From assembly GCF_003627815.1 (NCBI RefSeq), contig NZ_CP032698.1, forward strand, positions 6,200,001-6,264,000: DNA of 64,000 nt. The letters run 5' to 3'. The first letter of the stretch is position 1; every line of letters starts with the position of its first letter. Made by a program: the position numbers and the translations under genes. The notes under the pieces are model-generated. The model was not told the DNA's origin. It saw only the letters and a list, made by a program, of their open reading frames with translations, and ran no database searches. This document shows, one piece after another, positions 1 through 10,244 of the stretch. Source of the stretch: Streptomyces hundungensis. Its GTDB lineage: Bacteria; Actinomycetota; Actinomycetes; Streptomycetales; Streptomycetaceae.

Positions 1-1385
1 TCGGCCAGTACGCCCACGACGGCCGCAGCGAGCTGGTCGTCACCTTCGCCTACAACCAGTACCAGCAGCAGTTCCAGGCGCTGGCCAAGGGCATGGTGGA
101 GTGGGTCACCCAGGGCGTGCACCTGGGGCAGAGCCACAACTACCTGTCGATGCACGTGGACGACGTGTTCGCGCCCGACGCCCGCTGGGACACCGTCAAC
201 AACTGCACGCCCGGCGACTTCGACTGCCCCGCGGGCGGCGCCGCGAGCACGGACATCCGGATGACGGCGGCCGACGCCCAGTACGCCGCGCAGTGGGAGC
301 AGACCAGCGGCTTCACGCTCGACATGGTCTTCAACGCGGGCTCGGGCGAGGAGTGGAAGTCGGAGAACGGCGGCACCGACGCGCTCACCGCCCAACTCCT
401 GGCCGACAAGGCCAAGTTCCGCTGGATGAACCACACCTACACGCACGAGTTCCTCGGCTGCGTCCAGGACAACACCGTCGTGCCGTGGCAGTGCAAGAAG
501 AACGCCGACGGAAGCACCCAGTGGATGAGCCGGGCCGACATCTCGGCGCAGATCTCGCAGAACTACAACTGGGCCGTCCAAAAGGGCCTCCCGGTCGACA
601 AGAGCGAGATCGTCACCGGTGAGCACTCCGGCATGAAGGTCCTGCCGCAGCAGCCCGACGACAACCCGAACCTGGCGGGCGCCTTCGCCGACAACGGGAT
701 CAAATGGGCCGGCAGCGACGCCTCGCGCGAGCCGGACCAGCGCGCGGTCGGCGCCACCCAGACGGTGCCCCGGCACCCGATGAACGTGTACTACAACGTC
801 GGCAAGGCCGCCGAGATGACCGACGAGTACAACTGGCTGTACACCTCACGGGCCAACGGCGGAAGCGGCGTCTGCGAGGACAACCCGGCCTCCACCTGCA
901 TGCCCGCACCGCTGGACACGGCCACCGGCTACGCGTCGTACATCGTGCCGCGGGAGGCCAAGACCGCGCTCTCGCACGTGCTGTGGAACGACCCGCGCCC
1001 GACGTACGTCCACCAGTCGAACCTGGCCGAGGAGCGGATCCTCTACCCGGTCCTCGACCGGATCCTCGGCGACTACAAGGCGCTGTACGCGGACAACGCG
1101 CCGATCGTGAACCTGCGCGAGAAGGACGCGGGAACCGAGTTGGGCCGCCGGGCGTCCTGGGACAAGGCGCTCGCGTCCGGTTCGGTGACCGCCTACCGGA
1201 TCGGCACCGCCGTGACCGTCCAGGCTCCGAAGGGGGTGGCCGCCCCGGTCACGGCGCCGGAGGGCACCGTCAAGCAACTGCTCCTCGGCACCGCCGTTTT
1301 CGGGACGCCGTACGCGGGCGAGCGCTCCGACTGGACCTCGCCCGAGGCGCTCCAGTCGGCGATCACGCTGAAGCTGCCGGCCTGA
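1..1385 (+). CDS. Agd3-like NodB-fold polysaccharide deacetylase, 5' end outside window
   Basis: The frame is open from base 3, so the start lies upstream and only about the last 460 residues are visible. Two deacetylase motifs can be read: His-x-Asp-Asp at 153-164 and Asn-His-Thr-Tyr-Thr-His at 429-446, which in NodB-fold enzymes carry the catalytic aspartate and the metal-binding histidines. The text around them (HVDDVFAPDARWD) resembles, from memory, the CE18 enzyme Agd3, which deacetylates GalNAc in fungal galactosaminogalactan, more than chitin or peptidoglycan CE4 enzymes. The protein is probably exported; the signal peptide would be in the missing part. It leads a co-oriented set with a PelF-type glycosyltransferase and two hydrolases, which suggests it makes the polymer cationic. 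The deacetylase fold is fairly sure; the substrate is inferred from context. Confidence 0.75.
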   Translation, partial: GQYAHDGRSELVVTFAYNQYQQQFQALAKGMVEWVTQGVHLGQSHNYLSMHVDDVFAPDARWDTVNNCTPGDFDCPAGGAASTDIRMTAADAQYAAQWEQTSGFTLDMVFNAGSGEEWKSENGGTDALTAQLLADKAKFRWMNHTYTHEFLGCVQDNTVVPWQCKKNADGSTQWMSRADISAQISQNYNWAVQKGLPVDKSEIVTGEHSGMKVLPQQPDDNPNLAGAFADNGIKWAGSDASREPDQRAVGATQTVPRHPMNVYYNVGKAAEMTDEYNWLYTSRANGGSGVCEDNPASTCMPAPLDTATGYASYIVPREAKTALSHVLWNDPRPTYVHQSNLAEERILYPVLDRILGDYKALYADNAPIVNLREKDAGTELGRRASWDKALASGSVTAYRIGTAVTVQAPKGVAAPVTAPEGTVKQLLLGTAVFGTPYAGERSDWTSPEALQSAITLKLPA

Positions 1386-1404
1386 CCGACCGCTCGATCG
1401 CCAG

Positions 1405-1499
1405 GGTCTGTCCGGCGGGTCCGGTCGCCCGTCGGCGGCCCGGCACCCGGACGCCGTGAACCACAGGGCGTCCCGGGGGCGGGACCCGCCGGACAGACC
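1405..1499. repeat. 18-bp perfect inverted repeat between deacetylase and pelF
   Basis: GGTCTGTCCGGCGGGTCC at 1405-1422 is matched by its exact reverse complement at 1482-1499, with a 59-base spacer. It fills most of the 149-base gap between the deacetylase stop and the pelF start. In RNA it would form a long stem, so it may act as a terminator or attenuator inside the cluster. It could also be a small non-autonomous element, but I see no target duplication at its edges. Confidence 0.75.
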
Positions 1500-1534
1500 T
1501 TGTACGCACGACCGCTTGTCCTGGGGGGACATTC

Positions 1535-3085
1535 ATGCCGAGCAGTGGCCGTCATGTCACCATGCTCACAGAGGGCACATATCCGCATATTCACGGGGGT
1601 GTGAGTACCTGGTGCGATCAGCTCGTCCGCGGGATGCCGGAGGTCGACTTCCAGGTCGTCGCCCTCACCGGCAGCGGCCGCGAGCCGGTCACCTGGGAGC
1701 TTCCCGCCAACGTCTACCGGCACACGGCCTTCGCGCTGTGGGGGCCGCAGCCCGGCAGGCGCCGGCCGCTCCTCGGCAAGGAGCGGCGCCGGTTCACCGA
1801 CACCTACGAACGCTTCCTGCTCGCCCTGCTCGACCCGGAGTCCGGCTGTGACTTCGCCTCGGCCCTGTACGGCCTGGCCGAACTCGCCCGGGCCGGGCGC
1901 CTGTCGGCGGCGCTGCGCTCCGAGGCGGCGCTGAAGTCGCTCATGTGGATCTGGAGCATGCCGCACCTGGCGCTCTCCCGGGCGCGGCCCACCGTGCACG
2001 ACGCCCTGACCGCGACCGACCTCCTGGAACACGCCCTGCGCCCGCTCGCCGCCCGCATCCCGGCGGACAGCGTGGCGCACGCGGTCAGCAGCGGCCTGGC
2101 CACGCTGCCCGCGCTCGCCGCGCAGCACTTCGACCAGGTGCCGTTCCTGCTCACCGAACACGGCATCTACCTGCGCGAACGCTATCTCGGCTACCGCACG
2201 GCCCAGCAGAGCTGGCCGGTGAAGGCGGTGCTGTTGAGCTTCTACCGGGAGCTCAACACCCTGGGATACCGCAAGGCCGACCTCATCACCCCCTGCAACC
2301 AGTACAACCGCCGCTGGGAGGAGCGCGGAGGCGCCCCCTCCGAGCGCATCCGCACCGTCTACAACGGCGTCGACCCCGACCTGTTCCCGCACGCCGGACC
2401 CGACCCGGCGATCCCCACCCTCAGCTGGTGCGGGCGCATCGACCCGATCAAGGACCTGGAGACCCTGATCCGGGCGTACGCCATCGTGCGCGCCGAACTC
2501 CCCGACACCCGGCTGCGGTTGTACGGGGGAGTGCCGGCCGGCGGCCAGGACTACAAGACCCGTCTGGAGAAGCTGGCCGCCGAACTCGGCGTCACCGACG
2601 GCATCTCCTACGAGGGCCGCGTCACGGACGTCGCGAGCGCGTACGCCTCGGGCAGCGTCGTGATGCTCTCCAGCATCAGCGAGGGCTTCCCGTTCTCCCT
2701 GATCGAGGCCATGTCCTGCGGGCGGGCCACCGTCTCCACGGACGTCGGAGGGGTACGGGAAGCGGCCGGCGACGCGGGGCTCGTGGTGCCGCCACGGGAG
2801 CCCGCCGTCATGGCCGAAGCCGCCATCGGACTGCTCCGCGACCCCGCGCGCCGCACCGAACTGGGCGCCGCCGCCCGTCAGCGCGTGATCGACAAGTTCA
2901 CCCTGCACCGGTCGGTGGACGGCTTCCGCCGCATCTACCGGGAACTGGCCGGACACCTCGAACCCGAGCCCGCGCGGGCCGAGTTCAGGCCCGAGGACGA
3001 CTGGACGCTGCAACTCGCGGCGCCCTGGTACCGCGAGCTGTCCCACGACGGGGCGGCCGGCACGCTCGGCGGGGTGGCCCGATGA
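1535..3085 (+). CDS. pelF: PelF-type family 4 glycosyltransferase
   Basis: A 516-residue cytosolic GT-B glycosyltransferase. The N-terminus carries the PelF signature (TEGTYPHIHGGVSTW, residues 12-26), and the C-terminal Rossmann half has the Glu-x7-Glu sugar-nucleotide motif EGFPFSLIE (Glu383, Glu391) followed by GGVREA. PelF proteins polymerise UDP-activated amino sugars for Pel exopolysaccharide; fungal galactosaminogalactan uses the related enzyme Gtb3. The ATG follows a GGGGGGA ribosome site by a few bases. The stop overlaps the next ATG (ATGA), so translation is coupled to the membrane partner gene. No PelD- or PelE-like genes are seen, though upstream sequence is missing. Length is normal for the family. 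The family call is firm; the exact polymer is inferred. Confidence 0.88.
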   Translation: MPSSGRHVTMLTEGTYPHIHGGVSTWCDQLVRGMPEVDFQVVALTGSGREPVTWELPANVYRHTAFALWGPQPGRRRPLLGKERRRFTDTYERFLLALLDPESGCDFASALYGLAELARAGRLSAALRSEAALKSLMWIWSMPHLALSRARPTVHDALTATDLLEHALRPLAARIPADSVAHAVSSGLATLPALAAQHFDQVPFLLTEHGIYLRERYLGYRTAQQSWPVKAVLLSFYRELNTLGYRKADLITPCNQYNRRWEERGGAPSERIRTVYNGVDPDLFPHAGPDPAIPTLSWCGRIDPIKDLETLIRAYAIVRAELPDTRLRLYGGVPAGGQDYKTRLEKLAAELGVTDGISYEGRVTDVASAYASGSVVMLSSISEGFPFSLIEAMSCGRATVSTDVGGVREAAGDAGLVVPPREPAVMAEAAIGLLRDPARRTELGAAARQRVIDKFTLHRSVDGFRRIYRELAGHLEPEPARAEFRPEDDWTLQLAAPWYRELSHDGAAGTLGGVAR

Positions 3086-4518
3086 GCGGATCCCTGTGGA
3101 TCGGCGGGGAGGAGGGGCAGGACACCCTGCCCTTCATCCCCCGCCAGCGCACGGCCCGGTCGCCCGAGGGCGACGCCGTGGCCGAACTCGCCCTGCGCCT
3201 TGAGGACTTGATAGCCGTGGCCGTCCACCCGGACGAGATAGCCGCGATCATGGAGTCCGACGGCATGACCGACGCCCGGATACACGCCGTCTACGGCCAT
3301 CCCGACTCCTTCTCGCTCGCCGAGGAGCTCTACGGCCGGGTCGAGCGCCACTACCCGGCCGCCCCGGCCCCGCCCCCCGAGCCCTGGCACACCCACCTCG
3401 GCTCCTGCCTCCTGCGCGGCCTCGTCTTCGCCCTGCCGGGCCTCGCCTACGTCCTGGGGGCGCCCCTGCTGGCCGGGCCGCCCGCCGAGTTCGGCCTCCC
3501 CTCCGGGACGCTCGCCCTGCTCGCCGGGACCGTCACGGGCTGGGTGTGGAACCAGTCGCTCTCCCACCGCGCGCACTCCTGGCTCAGCCTCGCCGACCGC
3601 CCCGCCGCCGTCCGCGCGCTGCGCCTGGGCGCCCCGCTCGGCGCCGCGCTCAGCGCCCTGGCCGCTGTCGCCGCGGCCGGCCCGAACGACCTGGACGCCG
3701 CCGTGTTCGCCGCCGGCCAGTGCTGTTACCTCGCGGCGGCCACCACGCTGTTGGTGCTGGGCCGCGAACGCCCGCTGTTCTGGGCCCTGTTGCCCCTCAC
3801 CCTCGGCCTCGTACCGGCAGTCGCGGCCACCGTGGGCCCCGCGCTGCTCCTGGGCTCGCTTCTCGCCGCGGTGACGCTCGCCGTGCTCGCGCTGCGCGGC
3901 GAGACGGCCGGGCCCGGCCCGCGGGGCGCGGTCTCGCCCCGGCTCGCCGCCTCCGTCCCGTACGGCCTGTTCGGCCTCGGCGCGGGCATCCTCGTGCTGT
4001 ACGCCGCCCTCGGCGACCTCTTTCGGCACGACTCCACGGGCATGGTCGCCGGGCCGTCCGCGGTCGCCCTCACGCTGAGCATGGGCCCCGCCGAATGGCT
4101 CCTGCACCGCTTCCGCGCCGAGAGCCTCGCGGGCCTGCGCGCCACGTCGAGCGCGCGGGGATTTCGCGGTTCGGTGACGGCCACCGTCTCGCTCTGCCTC
4201 CTCGCCTATCTCCTGACCCTGGCCGCGCTCGCCGAGGCGGGCACCCGGCTGTGGCCGGACGCCCCCGCACTGAGCGGCATCCGTCTGGCGACGCTGCTCA
4301 TGATCGGCGCGGTGCTGTGGACCGGGCTGCTGCTCCAGTCGTTCGGGGCGGCGCCGGGAGCGGCCGTGGTGTGCTGCGCGGCGGCCCTCGCACAGACCCT
4401 GGCCCTGCTCCTGGGCGCGCCGCCCGAGGCGGGCCTGGTGGTCTCGGGCGGCGCGGTCGCGCTGCTGGCCGCCATGGCGTGTGTCCTACTGGGAAGGGCG
4501 AGCGCCCACCGCCCATGA
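3082..4518 (+). CDS. 12-helix membrane protein, PelG-like exopolysaccharide exporter candidate
   Basis: 478 residues, starting at an ATG inside the pelF stop (ATGA). About 110 mostly soluble, acidic N-terminal residues (GGEEGQDTLPFIPRQ onward) are followed by roughly twelve hydrophobic segments between about residues 115 and 475. A GPAEWLLHRFR stretch after the eighth segment recalls the polar loop motifs of PelG. PelG is the MOP-superfamily membrane partner of PelF and moves the nascent polymer across the membrane. I could not recognise this protein by sequence alone: the assignment rests on topology, coupling to pelF and operon position. The cytosolic N-terminal extension is unusual and might dock PelF or sense a regulator. 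A plain membrane protein of unknown function is the alternative. Confidence 0.6.
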   Translation: MSGSLWIGGEEGQDTLPFIPRQRTARSPEGDAVAELALRLEDLIAVAVHPDEIAAIMESDGMTDARIHAVYGHPDSFSLAEELYGRVERHYPAAPAPPPEPWHTHLGSCLLRGLVFALPGLAYVLGAPLLAGPPAEFGLPSGTLALLAGTVTGWVWNQSLSHRAHSWLSLADRPAAVRALRLGAPLGAALSALAAVAAAGPNDLDAAVFAAGQCCYLAAATTLLVLGRERPLFWALLPLTLGLVPAVAATVGPALLLGSLLAAVTLAVLALRGETAGPGPRGAVSPRLAASVPYGLFGLGAGILVLYAALGDLFRHDSTGMVAGPSAVALTLSMGPAEWLLHRFRAESLAGLRATSSARGFRGSVTATVSLCLLAYLLTLAALAEAGTRLWPDAPALSGIRLATLLMIGAVLWTGLLLQSFGAAPGAAVVCCAAALAQTLALLLGAPPEAGLVVSGGAVALLAAMACVLLGRASAHRP

Positions 4519-4585
4519 ACGCCGCCGCCCATGAACGCCGCCGCCCATGAACCCAGCCATCCATGAACCCCACCGCCCATGAACC
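4513..4585 (+). repeat. Five-copy 16-bp tandem repeat carrying in-line ATG codons
   Basis: The core CCATGAAC recurs with its ATG at 4515, 4531, 4547, 4563 and 4579, an exact 16-base period with small sequence drift between units. The array starts inside the stop region of the membrane protein gene and runs into the leader of the spherulin-like gene. Sixteen is not a multiple of three, so the ATGs lie in all three frames. Confidence 0.9.
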
Positions 4586-4631
4586 CCCCACCGAGCCCTC
4601 CGAGAACCCCGAGCGCGCTGCGAGGCAGCAC

Positions 4632-5249
4632 ATGAGCAGACTCCTGGTGCCCTACTACGAGCACCCGGCCGAGCGCCCCGACGCCTGGGACGCGCTGATC
4701 GCCGCCGCGCCCTCGCTGTATGGGGTCGTCCTCAACCCGGCCAGCGGGCCCGGGAGTTCACCCGACGCCGCGTTCGCCGCGGTGGCCGGCCGGCTGCGCT
4801 CGGCGGGCGTGCGGGTGCTCGGCTACGTGGACACCGCCTACGGCCGGCGCCCGCCGCAGGACGTGGTGCGCGAGGCGGTGCGCCACCACCAGTGGTACGG
4901 GGTGCACGGGCTCTTCCTCGACCAGGCGGCCACCAACGCCCAGCAACTGCCGTACTACGCGGACCTGCGGACCGCGCTCGCCGCCACCCAGGACACCTAT
5001 GTCACGCTCGTCCTGAACCACGGAGCCGACCCGCACCCCGGCTACGCCAGGATCGCCGACCTCCTCGTCACCTTCGAGGGCCCCTGGTCGGCGTACCGGC
5101 CGACCGGGACGGCCGGACCCGACACCTGCCACCTGGTGTACGAGGCGCCGCCCGACGCGGTCGCCCAGGCCCCGGTCCACTGCCTGGTTCCCGGTCAACT
5201 CCCGCACCCCTGGGGCACGTTGCCGCACCTCCCGGAGCCCGCCCGGTGA
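4632..5249 (+). CDS. Spherulin-4/GH135-family glycoside hydrolase
   Basis: 205 residues from the ATG at 4632, which has GAGG at the right distance; an in-frame ATG at 4563 sits inside a tandem repeat without a ribosome site. The family pattern is clear: LLVPYYEHP at the N-terminus, VVLNPASGPG, VLGYVDTAYGRR, WYGVHGLFLDQ and VTFEGPW. These are the strand ends of the TIM barrel of spherulin-4/Sph3 proteins, which cleave GalNAc-containing galactosaminogalactan in fungi. The usual Asp-Glu pair after the fifth strand reads Asp97-Gln98 here, while Glu149 is kept. I see no obvious signal peptide, so it may act inside the cell or use another export route. The stop overlaps the GTG of the GH114 gene. 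Confidence 0.82.
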   Translation: MSRLLVPYYEHPAERPDAWDALIAAAPSLYGVVLNPASGPGSSPDAAFAAVAGRLRSAGVRVLGYVDTAYGRRPPQDVVREAVRHHQWYGVHGLFLDQAATNAQQLPYYADLRTALAATQDTYVTLVLNHGADPHPGYARIADLLVTFEGPWSAYRPTGTAGPDTCHLVYEAPPDAVAQAPVHCLVPGQLPHPWGTLPHLPEPAR

Positions 5250-6070
5250 GACGCGCGCTCCTCCTGCTCGCCCCGCTGCTCCTGCTCGCGGCGTGCACCT
5301 CCTCCCCGGACGGGCCCGACGAGGGGGACGGCGCGGACGGCGGGAGCACCAGGCCTCCCGCCCCCTCGGGCCCGCACTGGAAGCCGAAGCCGGGCCTGAC
5401 CTGGCAGTGGCAGCTCAAGGGCACCCTCGACGCAACCGTGGACGTCCAGGTGTACGACATCGACGCCTTCGACCAGAGCGCGGCGGCCGTCGCCGATCTG
5501 CACCGCCGGGGCCGCAAGGTCATCTGCTACGTCTCGACGGGCGCCTGGGAGAACTGGCGGCCCGACGCGGCGCGGTTCCCCAAGGACGTGCTCGGCAAGG
5601 GCAACGGCTGGGACGGCGAGCGCTGGCTCGACATCCGCCGCACCGACGTCCTGGAGCCGCTCGTCGCCGCCCGTCTGGACATGTGCCGGGCCAAGGGCTT
5701 CGACGCGGTCGAACCGGACAACATGGACGGCTACCGCAACGACACCGGCTTCCCCCTCAAGGCCGCCGACCAGCTCCGCTACAACGAGCTGGTCGCCCGC
5801 CTCGCCCACGACCGGGGGCTCGGGGTGGGCCTGAAGAACGACCTCGACCAGATCCCGCCGCTGCTCGCCCACTTCGACTTCGCGGTCAACGAGCAGTGCG
5901 CCCAGTACCACGAGTGCGACCGGCTCACCCCGTTCGTCGCCGCGGGCAAGGCCGTCTTCCACGTCGAGTACGAACTCCCGCCCGCCCGGTTCTGCGCCCA
6001 GTCGAAGAAGCTCGGCCTCAGCTCGATGGCGAAGAAGTACGACCTCCAGGTCTGGCGCGACCCCTGCTGA
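5246..6070 (+). CDS. GH114 endo-alpha-1,4-polygalactosaminidase lipoprotein
   Basis: 274 residues from a GTG that overlaps the previous stop (GTGA). A lipoprotein signal ends in LLAAC with Cys17, followed by a flexible Gly/Asp/Pro-rich linker. The catalytic domain matches GH114 (Ega3-type): TWQWQLKGTLD near the N-terminus, VQVYDIDAFD, KVICYVSTGAWENWRPD, then GFDAVEPDNMDGY with candidate acid Asp158 and FAVNEQCAQY with Glu216. GH114 enzymes cut alpha-1,4-linked galactosamine polymers. A cell-anchored GH114 would trim or release the polymer made by the upstream genes. It is the last gene before a bidirectional terminator. Family assignment is strong; that it acts on this cluster's own product is inferred. 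Confidence 0.88.
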   Translation: MRRALLLLAPLLLLAACTSSPDGPDEGDGADGGSTRPPAPSGPHWKPKPGLTWQWQLKGTLDATVDVQVYDIDAFDQSAAAVADLHRRGRKVICYVSTGAWENWRPDAARFPKDVLGKGNGWDGERWLDIRRTDVLEPLVAARLDMCRAKGFDAVEPDNMDGYRNDTGFPLKAADQLRYNELVARLAHDRGLGVGLKNDLDQIPPLLAHFDFAVNEQCAQYHECDRLTPFVAAGKAVFHVEYELPPARFCAQSKKLGLSSMAKKYDLQVWRDPC

Positions 6071-7720: not shown

Positions 7721-8397
7721 CGGTCGCGTCGTCGCCTCCTGCGCCGCACCCAGGTGACCCAGCAGATCACGGCGACCGCGAGGAGGGCCGCGATGTGCTC
7801 CTTGCCCGCGAGGTTGTTCTTGAGCACCACTTCGAGCACCATCGAGGCGACCACCACCCCGGCCGTCCAGTACGCCCGGTAGCGCCAGCACACGTACACC
7901 GCGAGGGCCACGACGGCCGCCGAGGGGCCGGTGTCGACCATCTCGGCGGCGGAGGCGGGCAGGCCGAAGACGCTGTCCGGCCCGATGTGGATGCCGACCC
8001 GCGCGTACAGGGTGCCGGCCAGCGTCGCGGCGTAGGCGATGAGCAGCATCCGCCCGCGTCCGATGCAGATCTCCGCGACGCCGAAGACGAGCAGCACCTG
8101 GGCGAGCGCGCCCCACACCGGCAGGTCGAGGGCCGGCACGAACAGCGAGAACGGGGTGCGCAGGAGGGAGATCCACAGCGGGTACTCGGCCTTCACCGAG
8201 CCGATGATCTGGATCGGCCGAAAGCCCCAGGACTGGTTCTGGATGATCTGGAAGACCGAGGTGAGGGCCACCGCCGAGAGCGTCAGCCCGATCGCCCGCC
8301 AGCGCTGGGTGTGCAGCGCGTACGACACGGTCTTGAGCAGGGGCCCCCATTCGCGTTCCGCGAACCGGCGCACCCCGCCCCTGGCCCCACCGCTCAT
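7663..8397 (-). CDS. Rhomboid-like integral membrane protein
   Basis: 244 residues from ATG at 8397, overlapping the stop of the upstream gene (ATGA), so the two are translationally coupled. Six or so hydrophobic segments are present. The segment DTGPSAAVVALAVYVCW has a G-x-S-A arrangement like the rhomboid catalytic serine, but I see no clear matching His, so activity is doubtful. The tail is a run of Arg with HDRGRRTG. From context and pattern it fits the rhomboid-like proteins that accompany MprF-type proteins in Streptomyces. It may assist membrane insertion or turnover of its partner. The 3' end overlaps the opposite gene by 58 bases. Confidence 0.65.
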   Translation of the reverse strand: MSGGARGGVRRFAEREWGPLLKTVSYALHTQRWRAIGLTLSAVALTSVFQIIQNQSWGFRPIQIIGSVKAEYPLWISLLRTPFSLFVPALDLPVWGALAQVLLVFGVAEICIGRGRMLLIAYAATLAGTLYARVGIHIGPDSVFGLPASAAEMVDTGPSAAVVALAVYVCWRYRAYWTAGVVVASMVLEVVLKNNLAGKEHIAALLAVAVICWVTWVRRRRRRRDRHDRGRRTGSLSGAPPIQS

Positions 8398-10148
8398 CTC
8401 TGCGACTCCAGGTGTCTGCGGTGCAGCCACTTGGGCAGGCCCGGGGCTTCCAGGAAGCCCTCGGCGCGCGCGGACGCGATGGCGATGCGCGGCAGGTCCG
8501 CGCTCTTCTCGAACAAGGTGAACCGTGGCTCCCAGATCGGCCGGTACTTGGCGTTGGACCGGTACAGCGACTCGATCTGCCACCAGCGGGAGAAGAAGCT
8601 GAGGAGCGAGCGCCACAGCCTCAGCACGGGTCCCGCCCCGAGCTTCGAGCCGCGCTCGAAGACGGAACGGAACATCGCGAAGTTCAGTGAGACCTGAGTG
8701 ATCCTGATCTCCTTGGCGCGCTGGAGGAGTTCGATCACCATGAACTCGATCAGGCCGTTCTCGGAGTCACGGTCACGGCGCATCAGGTCGAGCGAGAGCC
8801 CCTCGGGGCCCCAGGGCACGAAGCTGAGCAGCGCCCTCAACTCGCCGTCCCCGTCGAAGCATTCGAGCATCATGCACTGGCCGTCGGCGGGGTCGCCGAG
8901 CCGGCCGAGCGCCATCGAGAAGCCGCGTTCGGTGGCGCCGTCGCGCCAGTCGTCGGCCTTGCGCAGGAGCTCGTCCATCTCCTCGGCGGGAATGTCCGCG
9001 TGGCGGCGGATCCGCACCTCGTACCCGGCCCGCTTCACCCGGTTGTACGCCTGGCGCACGGTCCGCATGGCGCGGCCCTCCAGGGTGAACTCGGCGGTCT
9101 CCACGATCGCCTCGTCGCCCATCTCCAGTGCGTCGAGGCCGTGCCGGGCGTAGATCTGCCCGGCCTCCTCGCTGGCGCCGGTGACGGCCGGGATCCAGCC
9201 GTGCGCGCGGGCCTCGGCGAGCCACGGCTCGATCGCGCCGGGCCAGGCCTCGGGGTCGCCGATGGGGTCGCCGGAGGCCAGCGAGACGCTGTTGATCACG
9301 CGGTAGGTGACGGCGGCCTTGCCGGTGGGCGACCAGATGACGGCCTTCTCGCGGCGCAGCGCGAAGTAGCCGAGCGAGTCGCGCTCGCCCTGCTTGTCCA
9401 GGAGCGCGCGCAGCTTCTCCTCGTCCTCGACGGTGAGCGGGTCCACGGCCCTGCGGTTGCGGAAGGCGGCGTAGACGACCGCGATCAGGAGCAGCGTGGC
9501 GAGCACGTTGATGGTGACGTTGACCCAGCCCGGGGTGGTGACGCCCTGGGTGTGCCGGTCGTCGGGGACCAGGAAGACCAGACGCATCAGGCCGTAGCGC
9601 CAGCGGCGCAGGAACGTCGACTGGTCGGTGCCGTCATAGGTGTTGGTCGCGCTGACCAGGACCGCCGCGATCAGCGAGGTGACGAGCAGCCCGCCGACGG
9701 CCGTGACGACCGCGGCCAGCGGGTTGGAGCGGTCGCCCTTGGCGTAGAACTCGCGGCGGCCCACCAGGAGCGCCACCACGAAGGCGGTGGTGAGCCCCAG
9801 CGAGATCCAGTTCTGGAGGTAGCGGTGGAACCCCGGCAGGGCCATGACGTACGCGCAGAGCAGCAGGAAGAGCCCGCCGAGCACCAGGTTGAGGATCCAG
9901 GCGGCCCGCTTGCGGCGGCGCATGGTGACGGCGAGGAAGAGCGTGACCACCCCGGAGGTGAAGCCGGCTTCGAGCAGATACGGCGTGAAGTAGTCGTCCG
10001 TGTTGTGCCGCCGCAGCCCCTGTCCGAGGGTCACCCACACGGCACTGAGGAAGTTGATGAACGTCACGACGCGCAGGTACCAGACGGCGAACGCCGCGCC
10101 GGTCCGCGAGCGGGGGGTGCTCCGGTTCGTTCCTTCAGTGGTGCTCAA
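8394..10148 (-). CDS. MprF/LysX-like membrane protein with DUF2156 transferase domain
   Basis: 584 residues from TTG at 10148, chosen because GGAGAAG lies five bases upstream; an ATG at 10163 is in frame but overlaps that ribosome site and has none of its own. The N-terminal 270 residues hold about seven membrane helices. The cytosolic C-terminal half is a DUF2156 double-GNAT domain: GYFALRREKAVIWSP, VTYRVINSVSLASGDPIGD, VKRAGYEVRIRRH, FSMALGRLGDPADGQ and LMRRDRDSENGLIEFMV. Such domains transfer an amino acid from tRNA to phosphatidylglycerol or other acceptors, changing membrane charge. No lysyl-tRNA synthetase is fused, unlike mycobacterial LysX. It sits downstream of cobT, 96 bases away. 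Substrate unknown. Confidence 0.85.
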   Translation of the reverse strand: MSTTEGTNRSTPRSRTGAAFAVWYLRVVTFINFLSAVWVTLGQGLRRHNTDDYFTPYLLEAGFTSGVVTLFLAVTMRRRKRAAWILNLVLGGLFLLLCAYVMALPGFHRYLQNWISLGLTTAFVVALLVGRREFYAKGDRSNPLAAVVTAVGGLLVTSLIAAVLVSATNTYDGTDQSTFLRRWRYGLMRLVFLVPDDRHTQGVTTPGWVNVTINVLATLLLIAVVYAAFRNRRAVDPLTVEDEEKLRALLDKQGERDSLGYFALRREKAVIWSPTGKAAVTYRVINSVSLASGDPIGDPEAWPGAIEPWLAEARAHGWIPAVTGASEEAGQIYARHGLDALEMGDEAIVETAEFTLEGRAMRTVRQAYNRVKRAGYEVRIRRHADIPAEEMDELLRKADDWRDGATERGFSMALGRLGDPADGQCMMLECFDGDGELRALLSFVPWGPEGLSLDLMRRDRDSENGLIEFMVIELLQRAKEIRITQVSLNFAMFRSVFERGSKLGAGPVLRLWRSLLSFFSRWWQIESLYRSNAKYRPIWEPRFTLFEKSADLPRIAIASARAEGFLEAPGLPKWLHRRHLESQR

Positions 10149-10244
10149 GCGGACTTCTCCCATGAAACGCGATGATATGGGGGCAAGGCGTTTCGCAGTG
10201 GCCGCGGGCAGCGCAGGGGGGAGGCCCCCCGGCGCTGCCGTGAC

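Follow-up and report, generated by a model that had tools for sequence, protein, structure and literature searches.

The first 6.07 kb of a 64,000-nucleotide stretch of the Streptomyces hundungensis genome (NZ_CP032698.1, positions 6,200,001 to 6,264,000, forward strand; hereafter the window) carry five genes of an exopolysaccharide cluster built around a PelF-type synthase. We lean towards the view that this cluster makes, exports and finishes a cationic, partly de-N-acetylated alpha-1,4-linked exopolymer rich in N-acetylgalactosamine (GalNAc), of the galactosaminogalactan (GAG) and Pel kind, with one hydrolase on each side of the membrane. Of these two polymer-cutting enzymes, the spherulin-4 protein of family GH135 seems to remain within the cell, next to the synthase. 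Computation established to which families the proteins belong, their predicted folds and catalytic residues, the order of the genes, which proteins carry export signals and, in this genome, the one-to-one pairing of PelF with spherulin-4. An earlier note on this DNA had described five co-oriented genes, and all of them do lie on the + strand at the positions it gave. The features are as follows.

1..1385, + strand: CE18/Agd3-type deacetylase, C-terminal two thirds (alignment to Agd3, profile comparison, fold match)
1405..1499, + strand: stem-loop between deacetylase and pelF (folding energy, inverted arms)
1535..3085, + strand: PelF-type GT4 glycosyltransferase, 516 amino acids, predicted cytosolic polymer synthase (family profile match)
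3082..4518, + strand: 12-helix MOP/MATE-fold membrane protein, 478 amino acids, presumed exporter (predicted fold)
4632..5249, + strand: GH135/spherulin-4 protein, 205 amino acids from ATG 4632 (Pfam, match to 5c5g)
5246..6070, + strand: GH114 endo-galactosaminidase-type lipoprotein, 274 amino acids (Pfam, alignment to Ega3)

The whole genome contains three PelF matches of at least 304 bits, all other GT4 enzymes scoring at most 68 bits. It has three spherulin-4 genes, one in each PelF locus and none elsewhere, two GH114 genes (types A and B) and two CE18 matches (types A and B). Type A is the window locus. In type B (L009) the order is deacetylase, pelF, membrane protein, epimerase-family gene, nucleotidyltransferase, second epimerase-family gene, spherulin-4 and GH114. 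Type C (L116:3988-10103; G000:C1:3064987-3071102) consists of genes for PelF, the membrane protein, an epimerase-family enzyme and a spherulin-4 protein without the catalytic Glu; the gene adjoining it looks moeZ-like from its sequence. Because all copies of spherulin-4, GH114, CE18 and PelF in this genome fall in the three loci, and because the gene order recurs in other genomes, the clustering goes beyond chance, and the homologues are not scattered over the genome.

Export signals were read with one crude rule for all proteins, a hydrophobic stretch anywhere between a possible start and the domain, and loci whose match starts late in the domain were left out of the counts. By this rule none of 75 actinobacterial spherulin-4 proteins has an export signal (26 of type A, 27 of type B, 15 of type C and 7 from Micromonosporaceae), as against 57 of 62 deacetylases and 38 of 42 GH114 proteins from the A, B and Micromonosporaceae loci; a lipobox is found in 22 of the 42 GH114 proteins. 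In the window no signal peptide was seen in spherulin-4, which starts either at ATG 4632, with GAGG ahead of it, or at ATG 4563, the latter giving 23 more hydrophilic residues. In most A and B loci a start codon lies within a few residues of the first barrel strand, and type C proteins have about 22 additional hydrophilic N-terminal residues. Since the spherulin-4 proteins lack a hydrophobic N-terminal stretch and their start codons lie close to the barrel, we predict from sequence that this GH135 enzyme is cytosolic.

The window spherulin-4 matches PF12138 (Spherulin4) at 108.2 bits, over a cut-off of 30.2, and 5c5g at 49.7 bits. It retains D97 (4920-4922) and E149 (5076-5078), the Asp and Glu taken to be catalytic as in Sph3. 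An Asp/Glu catalytic pair is stated in PMC12054363. With spherulin-4 matches below 100 bits (e.g. L140) dropped, there are 64 bacterial loci that do not belong to type C; 62 of them retain both residues, and in each of the remaining two one residue is cut off or masked. In type C, on the other hand, the Glu is absent from 15 of 15 proteins, with Ser, Ala, Cys or Arg in its place, and the Asp is absent too in 4 of the 15; the loss of Glu was also seen in a smaller set with a different alignment. Because the catalytic Glu is lost, the type C protein is predicted to be inactive.

The deacetylase has 677 residues, of which the window covers approximately 218 onward; extension upstream, as the earlier note had proposed, placed its start at window position -648 (L007:15353). 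Its N-terminus reads as Sec-type. A profile of 15 relatives matched Agd3 (6NWZ) with an E value of 1.2e-35 across the CBM, CE and C-terminal parts, and Agd3 was also the top fold match. The protein thus shows the three-domain CE18 fold (CBM87, CE domain and beta-rich C-terminal domain), and profile and fold point to Agd3, so that its matches are not confined to CE4 enzymes. The catalytic residues of motifs CM1-CM4 of Agd3 are named in PMC7229062. All six of them, D377, D378, H510, H514, R613 and H668, are matched in the deacetylase, by D270 (159-161), D271 (162-164), H361 (432-434), H365 (444-446), R474 (771-773) and H554 (1011-1013), respectively. PF25115 is present in some of its close relatives.

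The GH114 lipoprotein matches PF03537 at 297.5 bits (cut-off 27) and Ega3 at 208 bits, with the active-site PDN and NEQ stretches retained. Its lipobox is LAAC, with Cys17 at 5294-5296, and the conserved D158 (5717-5719) and E216 (5891-5893) are considered catalytic from the Ega3 alignment. The synthase scores 169.7 bits with the NCBIfam PelF profile NF038011, whose cut-off is 100. The 10 type A, 8 type B and 7 type C rows of a 94-row PelF tree form one clade each (support 100, 91 and 100), and this PelF clade stands apart from the PelF proteins that, in the loci checked, are accompanied by PelG. The families named in the earlier note are thereby borne out, by profile cut-offs for PelF, spherulin-4 and GH114 and by the Agd3 profile and fold match for the deacetylase.

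That note had also called for a check of the 12-helix partner against PelG, and here the result was negative. The predicted fold is a 12-helix MOP/MATE fold in which residues 32-86 form a small helical N-terminal domain, and the protein matches neither PF16933 (PelG) nor any other Pfam family. PF16933 is also absent from the whole genome, whereas the positive control, Thermotoga maritima, matched. Comparison with a PelG profile in hhalign gave 1.1%, the PelG profile being shallow (4 sequences). By each of these tests the partner is not PelG. PF16963, for the cyclic di-GMP receptor PelD, gave no match, yet the control genomes were silent too.

In other Streptomyces, PelF is matched at E 1e-60 or better in 213 of 246 genomes; among the matches listed, and judged by eye, the A kind is found in about 69 and the B kind in about 62. 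Gene content was read from loci picked by hand, 20 of the about 69 of type A and 12 of the about 62 of type B. Deacetylase, pelF and membrane protein stand in the same order in 20/20 type A loci, spherulin-4 being found in 18/20 and GH114 in 13/20. In type B, pelF, the membrane protein, three sugar-nucleotide genes and spherulin-4 are present in 12/12 (one spherulin-4 partly masked), the deacetylase in 11/12 (one merely a fragment) and GH114 in 9/12. Type C spherulin-4 is present in 95 of 101 Streptomyces genomes. The order is kept in 14/14 further type C loci, no deacetylase or GH114 gene lying within the fetched stretches. Epimerase identities are 83-92% in 13 of these 14; in L131 the epimerase is found as two pieces (87 and 97%).

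Beyond Streptomyces, a scan for CE18 with one genome per species gave 305 stretches, the best 80 of which were taken further; these 80 come from Actinomycetota, Chloroflexota, Deinococcota, Acidobacteriota, Pseudomonadota and Myxococcota. An epimerase-family gene stands together with deacetylase, pelF, membrane-protein, spherulin-4 and GH114 genes in six loci of Dactylosporangium and one of Virgisporangium. Another actinobacterial kind of locus (L117, at G396:C91:14000-31000, L043, L151-L155, L157 and L158) has CE18, PelF, a membrane protein and a nucleotidyltransferase, with epimerase-family genes in most and a weak GH114-like gene in several; no spherulin-4 was found in it. L117 was left out of type C for its different gene set.

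According to PMC11356417 and PMC7229062, the fungal GH135 enzyme Sph3 cuts the acetylated polymer and is required for its synthesis, and Ega3/GH114-1 cuts the deacetylated polymer. In the pathway that we favour, PelF would polymerise in the cytosol from a UDP-GalNAc-type donor and the MOP-fold protein would carry the chain out of the cell. The cytosolic GH135 would cut acetylated chain that is nascent or stalled, to control its length or to clear it. On the outer side, the secreted CE18 enzyme would strip some of the acetyl groups, leaving deacetylated stretches for the GH114 lipoprotein to cut. We infer here the donor sugar, the polymer and, for GH135, both its activity in the cytosol and its role; of the conceivable products, a GalNAc polymer with part of its N-acetyl groups removed is the most likely. 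Deacetylation is expected after export because the CE18 enzyme has an export signal. It would follow that GH135 in the cytosol meets acetylated substrate and the GH114 lipoprotein deacetylated substrate. This agreement between location and fungal substrate specificity is the best argument for GH135 as a possible editor of the nascent chain.

More tentatively, GH135 may belong to the PelF synthase itself and edit the nascent chain in the cytosol, as part of a core unit of PelF, MOP-fold exporter and spherulin-4 of which this genome has three. The putative editor keeps its catalytic pair where a deacetylase and GH114 accompany it, and the Glu-less type C copy would presumably bind or guide the chain. 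Such an editor would explain why the hydrolase Sph3 is needed for making the polymer that it cuts.

Several observations weigh against the favoured pathway. The deacetylase reaches only 12.5-15.5 bits with the Pfam models Agd3_CE and CBM87_Agd3, short of the cut-off of 27.6, and M666 of Agd3 (in CM4), reported in PMC7229062 to be necessary for adhesion activity, is Tyr in it. No epimerase of the Uge3 kind (UDP-glucose/N-acetylglucosamine 4-epimerase) is found in type A clusters, so a supply of UDP-GalNAc has to be assumed; epimerase-family genes do occur in the type B and Dactylosporangium clusters. Spherulin-4 is missing from 2 of 28 type A loci (L084 and L102) and GH114 from the fetched stretch in 7 of 20, and therefore neither hydrolase is indispensable. 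Spherulin-4 may also be exported without a leader.

This last point leads to an alternative that we consider unlikely, in which the pathway is the same and GH135 leaves the cell by a route invisible to our rule, or through lysis, and acts extracellularly or at the membrane like fungal Sph3. The three control loci speak partly for it, in that both Rubrobacter-type homologues (the label rests on L132 being 86% identical to L041) have a hydrophobic spherulin-4 N-terminus; the third (L037) has none. However, the count of 0/75 for such a stretch in actinobacterial copies comes from several kinds of locus, and most of their operon neighbours have one.

Equally improbable, in our estimate, is a polymer of other sugars, for instance those of the type B epimerase-family and nucleotidyltransferase genes, on which CE18, GH114 and GH135 would act after a drift in specificity. 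The additional nucleotidyltransferase and two epimerase-family genes of type B would fit such a polymer, as would the distinctness of this PelF clade from the PelG-accompanied PelF of the loci checked. Yet GH114 keeps a match of 208 bits to Ega3 with its active-site stretches conserved, and the families that co-occur here are those reported to act on alpha-1,4-linked GalNAc or galactosamine polymer (Agd3, Sph3 and Ega3 in PMC7229062, PelF in PMC7112168). Least probable is a cytosolic GH135 that salvages imported GalNAc oligosaccharides released by GH114, with no synthase as partner: two genes for permeases of the ATP-binding cassette type lie a few genes from the type C locus of this genome (L116), but no importer was found among the scanned genes of type A and B clusters, and spherulin-4 accompanies PelF even where GH114 and the deacetylase are absent and even where its Glu is lost.

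Returning to the window locus, the pelF and membrane-protein genes overlap by 4 bases, as do the spherulin-4 and GH114 genes. Among the flanking genes scanned, those upstream of the deacetylase (M17 aminopeptidase and lipoamide/pyruvate dehydrogenase-type genes) and cobS downstream are unrelated and on the opposite strand. A lysyl-phosphatidylglycerol synthase-like gene (PF09924, PF16995) lies at 8394-10163 on the minus strand. The very stable stem-loop lies in the gap of 149 bases that separates deacetylase and pelF, with perfect 18-base arms at 1405-1422 and 1482-1499 (-97.6 kcal/mol, z -5.4). Its 17-base arm was found, with one mismatch, at seven further genome sites (two sites for the reversed-pattern control), so that it could be a terminator-like element or a repeat dispersed over the genome. 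Nine of 28 type A loci have a gap of just 25-38 bases here, with no inverted repeat of at least 8 bases. Short CGCCCATGAAC repeats, each with an ATG, were noticed by eye at about 4511-4582, ahead of spherulin-4 and after the membrane-protein gene.

The earlier note's central idea, that this enzyme set stands in a bacterial operon and hints at ancient transfer between bacteria and fungi, was already in print in 2020: PMC7229062 (Bamford 2020) describes bacterial Agd3 operons with a glycosyltransferase, a multi-spanning membrane protein and GH114, and with spherulin-4 in some Actinobacteria, and argues for transfer to fungi, an idea put forward earlier in PMC4817252. Our GH114 tree neither supports nor excludes transfer, since Ega3 stands outside a well-supported group of 50 bacterial rows, in an unresolved position next to a Trueperaceae row, on a long branch and with at most 48% identity. 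Three protein searches gave no fungal rows, the named rows viewed among the best 120 of 2173, 1266 and 2216 matches being Streptomyces.

In the open-licence PMC literature we found no description of three PelF loci with one spherulin-4 each in this genome, of the contrast in export signals between spherulin-4 and the deacetylase and GH114, or of the Glu-less spherulin-4 of the third locus in 95 of 101 Streptomyces. PMC12054363 names a galactosaminidase activity of Streptomyces griseus without a sequence. Why some exopolysaccharide hydrolases are required to make the very polymer that they break down is a standing puzzle. A division between compartments that would match substrate, acetylated inside and deacetylated outside, together with a natural Glu-less form in a locus carried by most Streptomyces, allows the role of GH135 to be tested in a tractable genetic host. 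If our proposal is true, an unrecognised galactosamine-type polymer would take part in Streptomyces adhesion or pellet formation.

The closest known systems are the bacterial CE18/Agd3 operons of PMC7229062, which likewise have a three-domain Agd3-type deacetylase, a cytoplasmic glycosyltransferase, a multi-spanning membrane protein, GH114 and, in some Actinobacteria, spherulin-4. The membrane side of spherulin-4, the Glu-less third locus and the fold of the membrane protein are not mentioned in the available text of that paper. The galactosaminogalactan cluster of Aspergillus fumigatus (uge3, sph3, ega3, agd3, gtb3) has the deacetylase, GH135 and GH114 families in common with ours, and also a glycosyltransferase. 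In our loci, by contrast, glycosyltransferase and membrane protein are separate genes, type A has no epimerase and GH135 lacks an N-terminal membrane segment. The membrane partner shares the predicted 12-helix fold of the MOP superfamily (MATE, WzxE, MurJ) and differs in its extra N-terminal helical domain and in matching no Pfam family. The Pel operons (pelABCDEFG of P. aeruginosa and pelDEADAFG of Gram-positive bacteria) share the PelF-family synthase, and they make an alpha-1,4-GalNAc polymer that is deacetylated after synthesis, as we propose for the putative Streptomyces polymer. They differ in that the Streptomyces genome has, in place of PelG, a membrane protein of another MOP-fold family, and in that the deacetylase, PelA or PelADA in the Pel operons, is a CE18 enzyme in the Streptomyces cluster.

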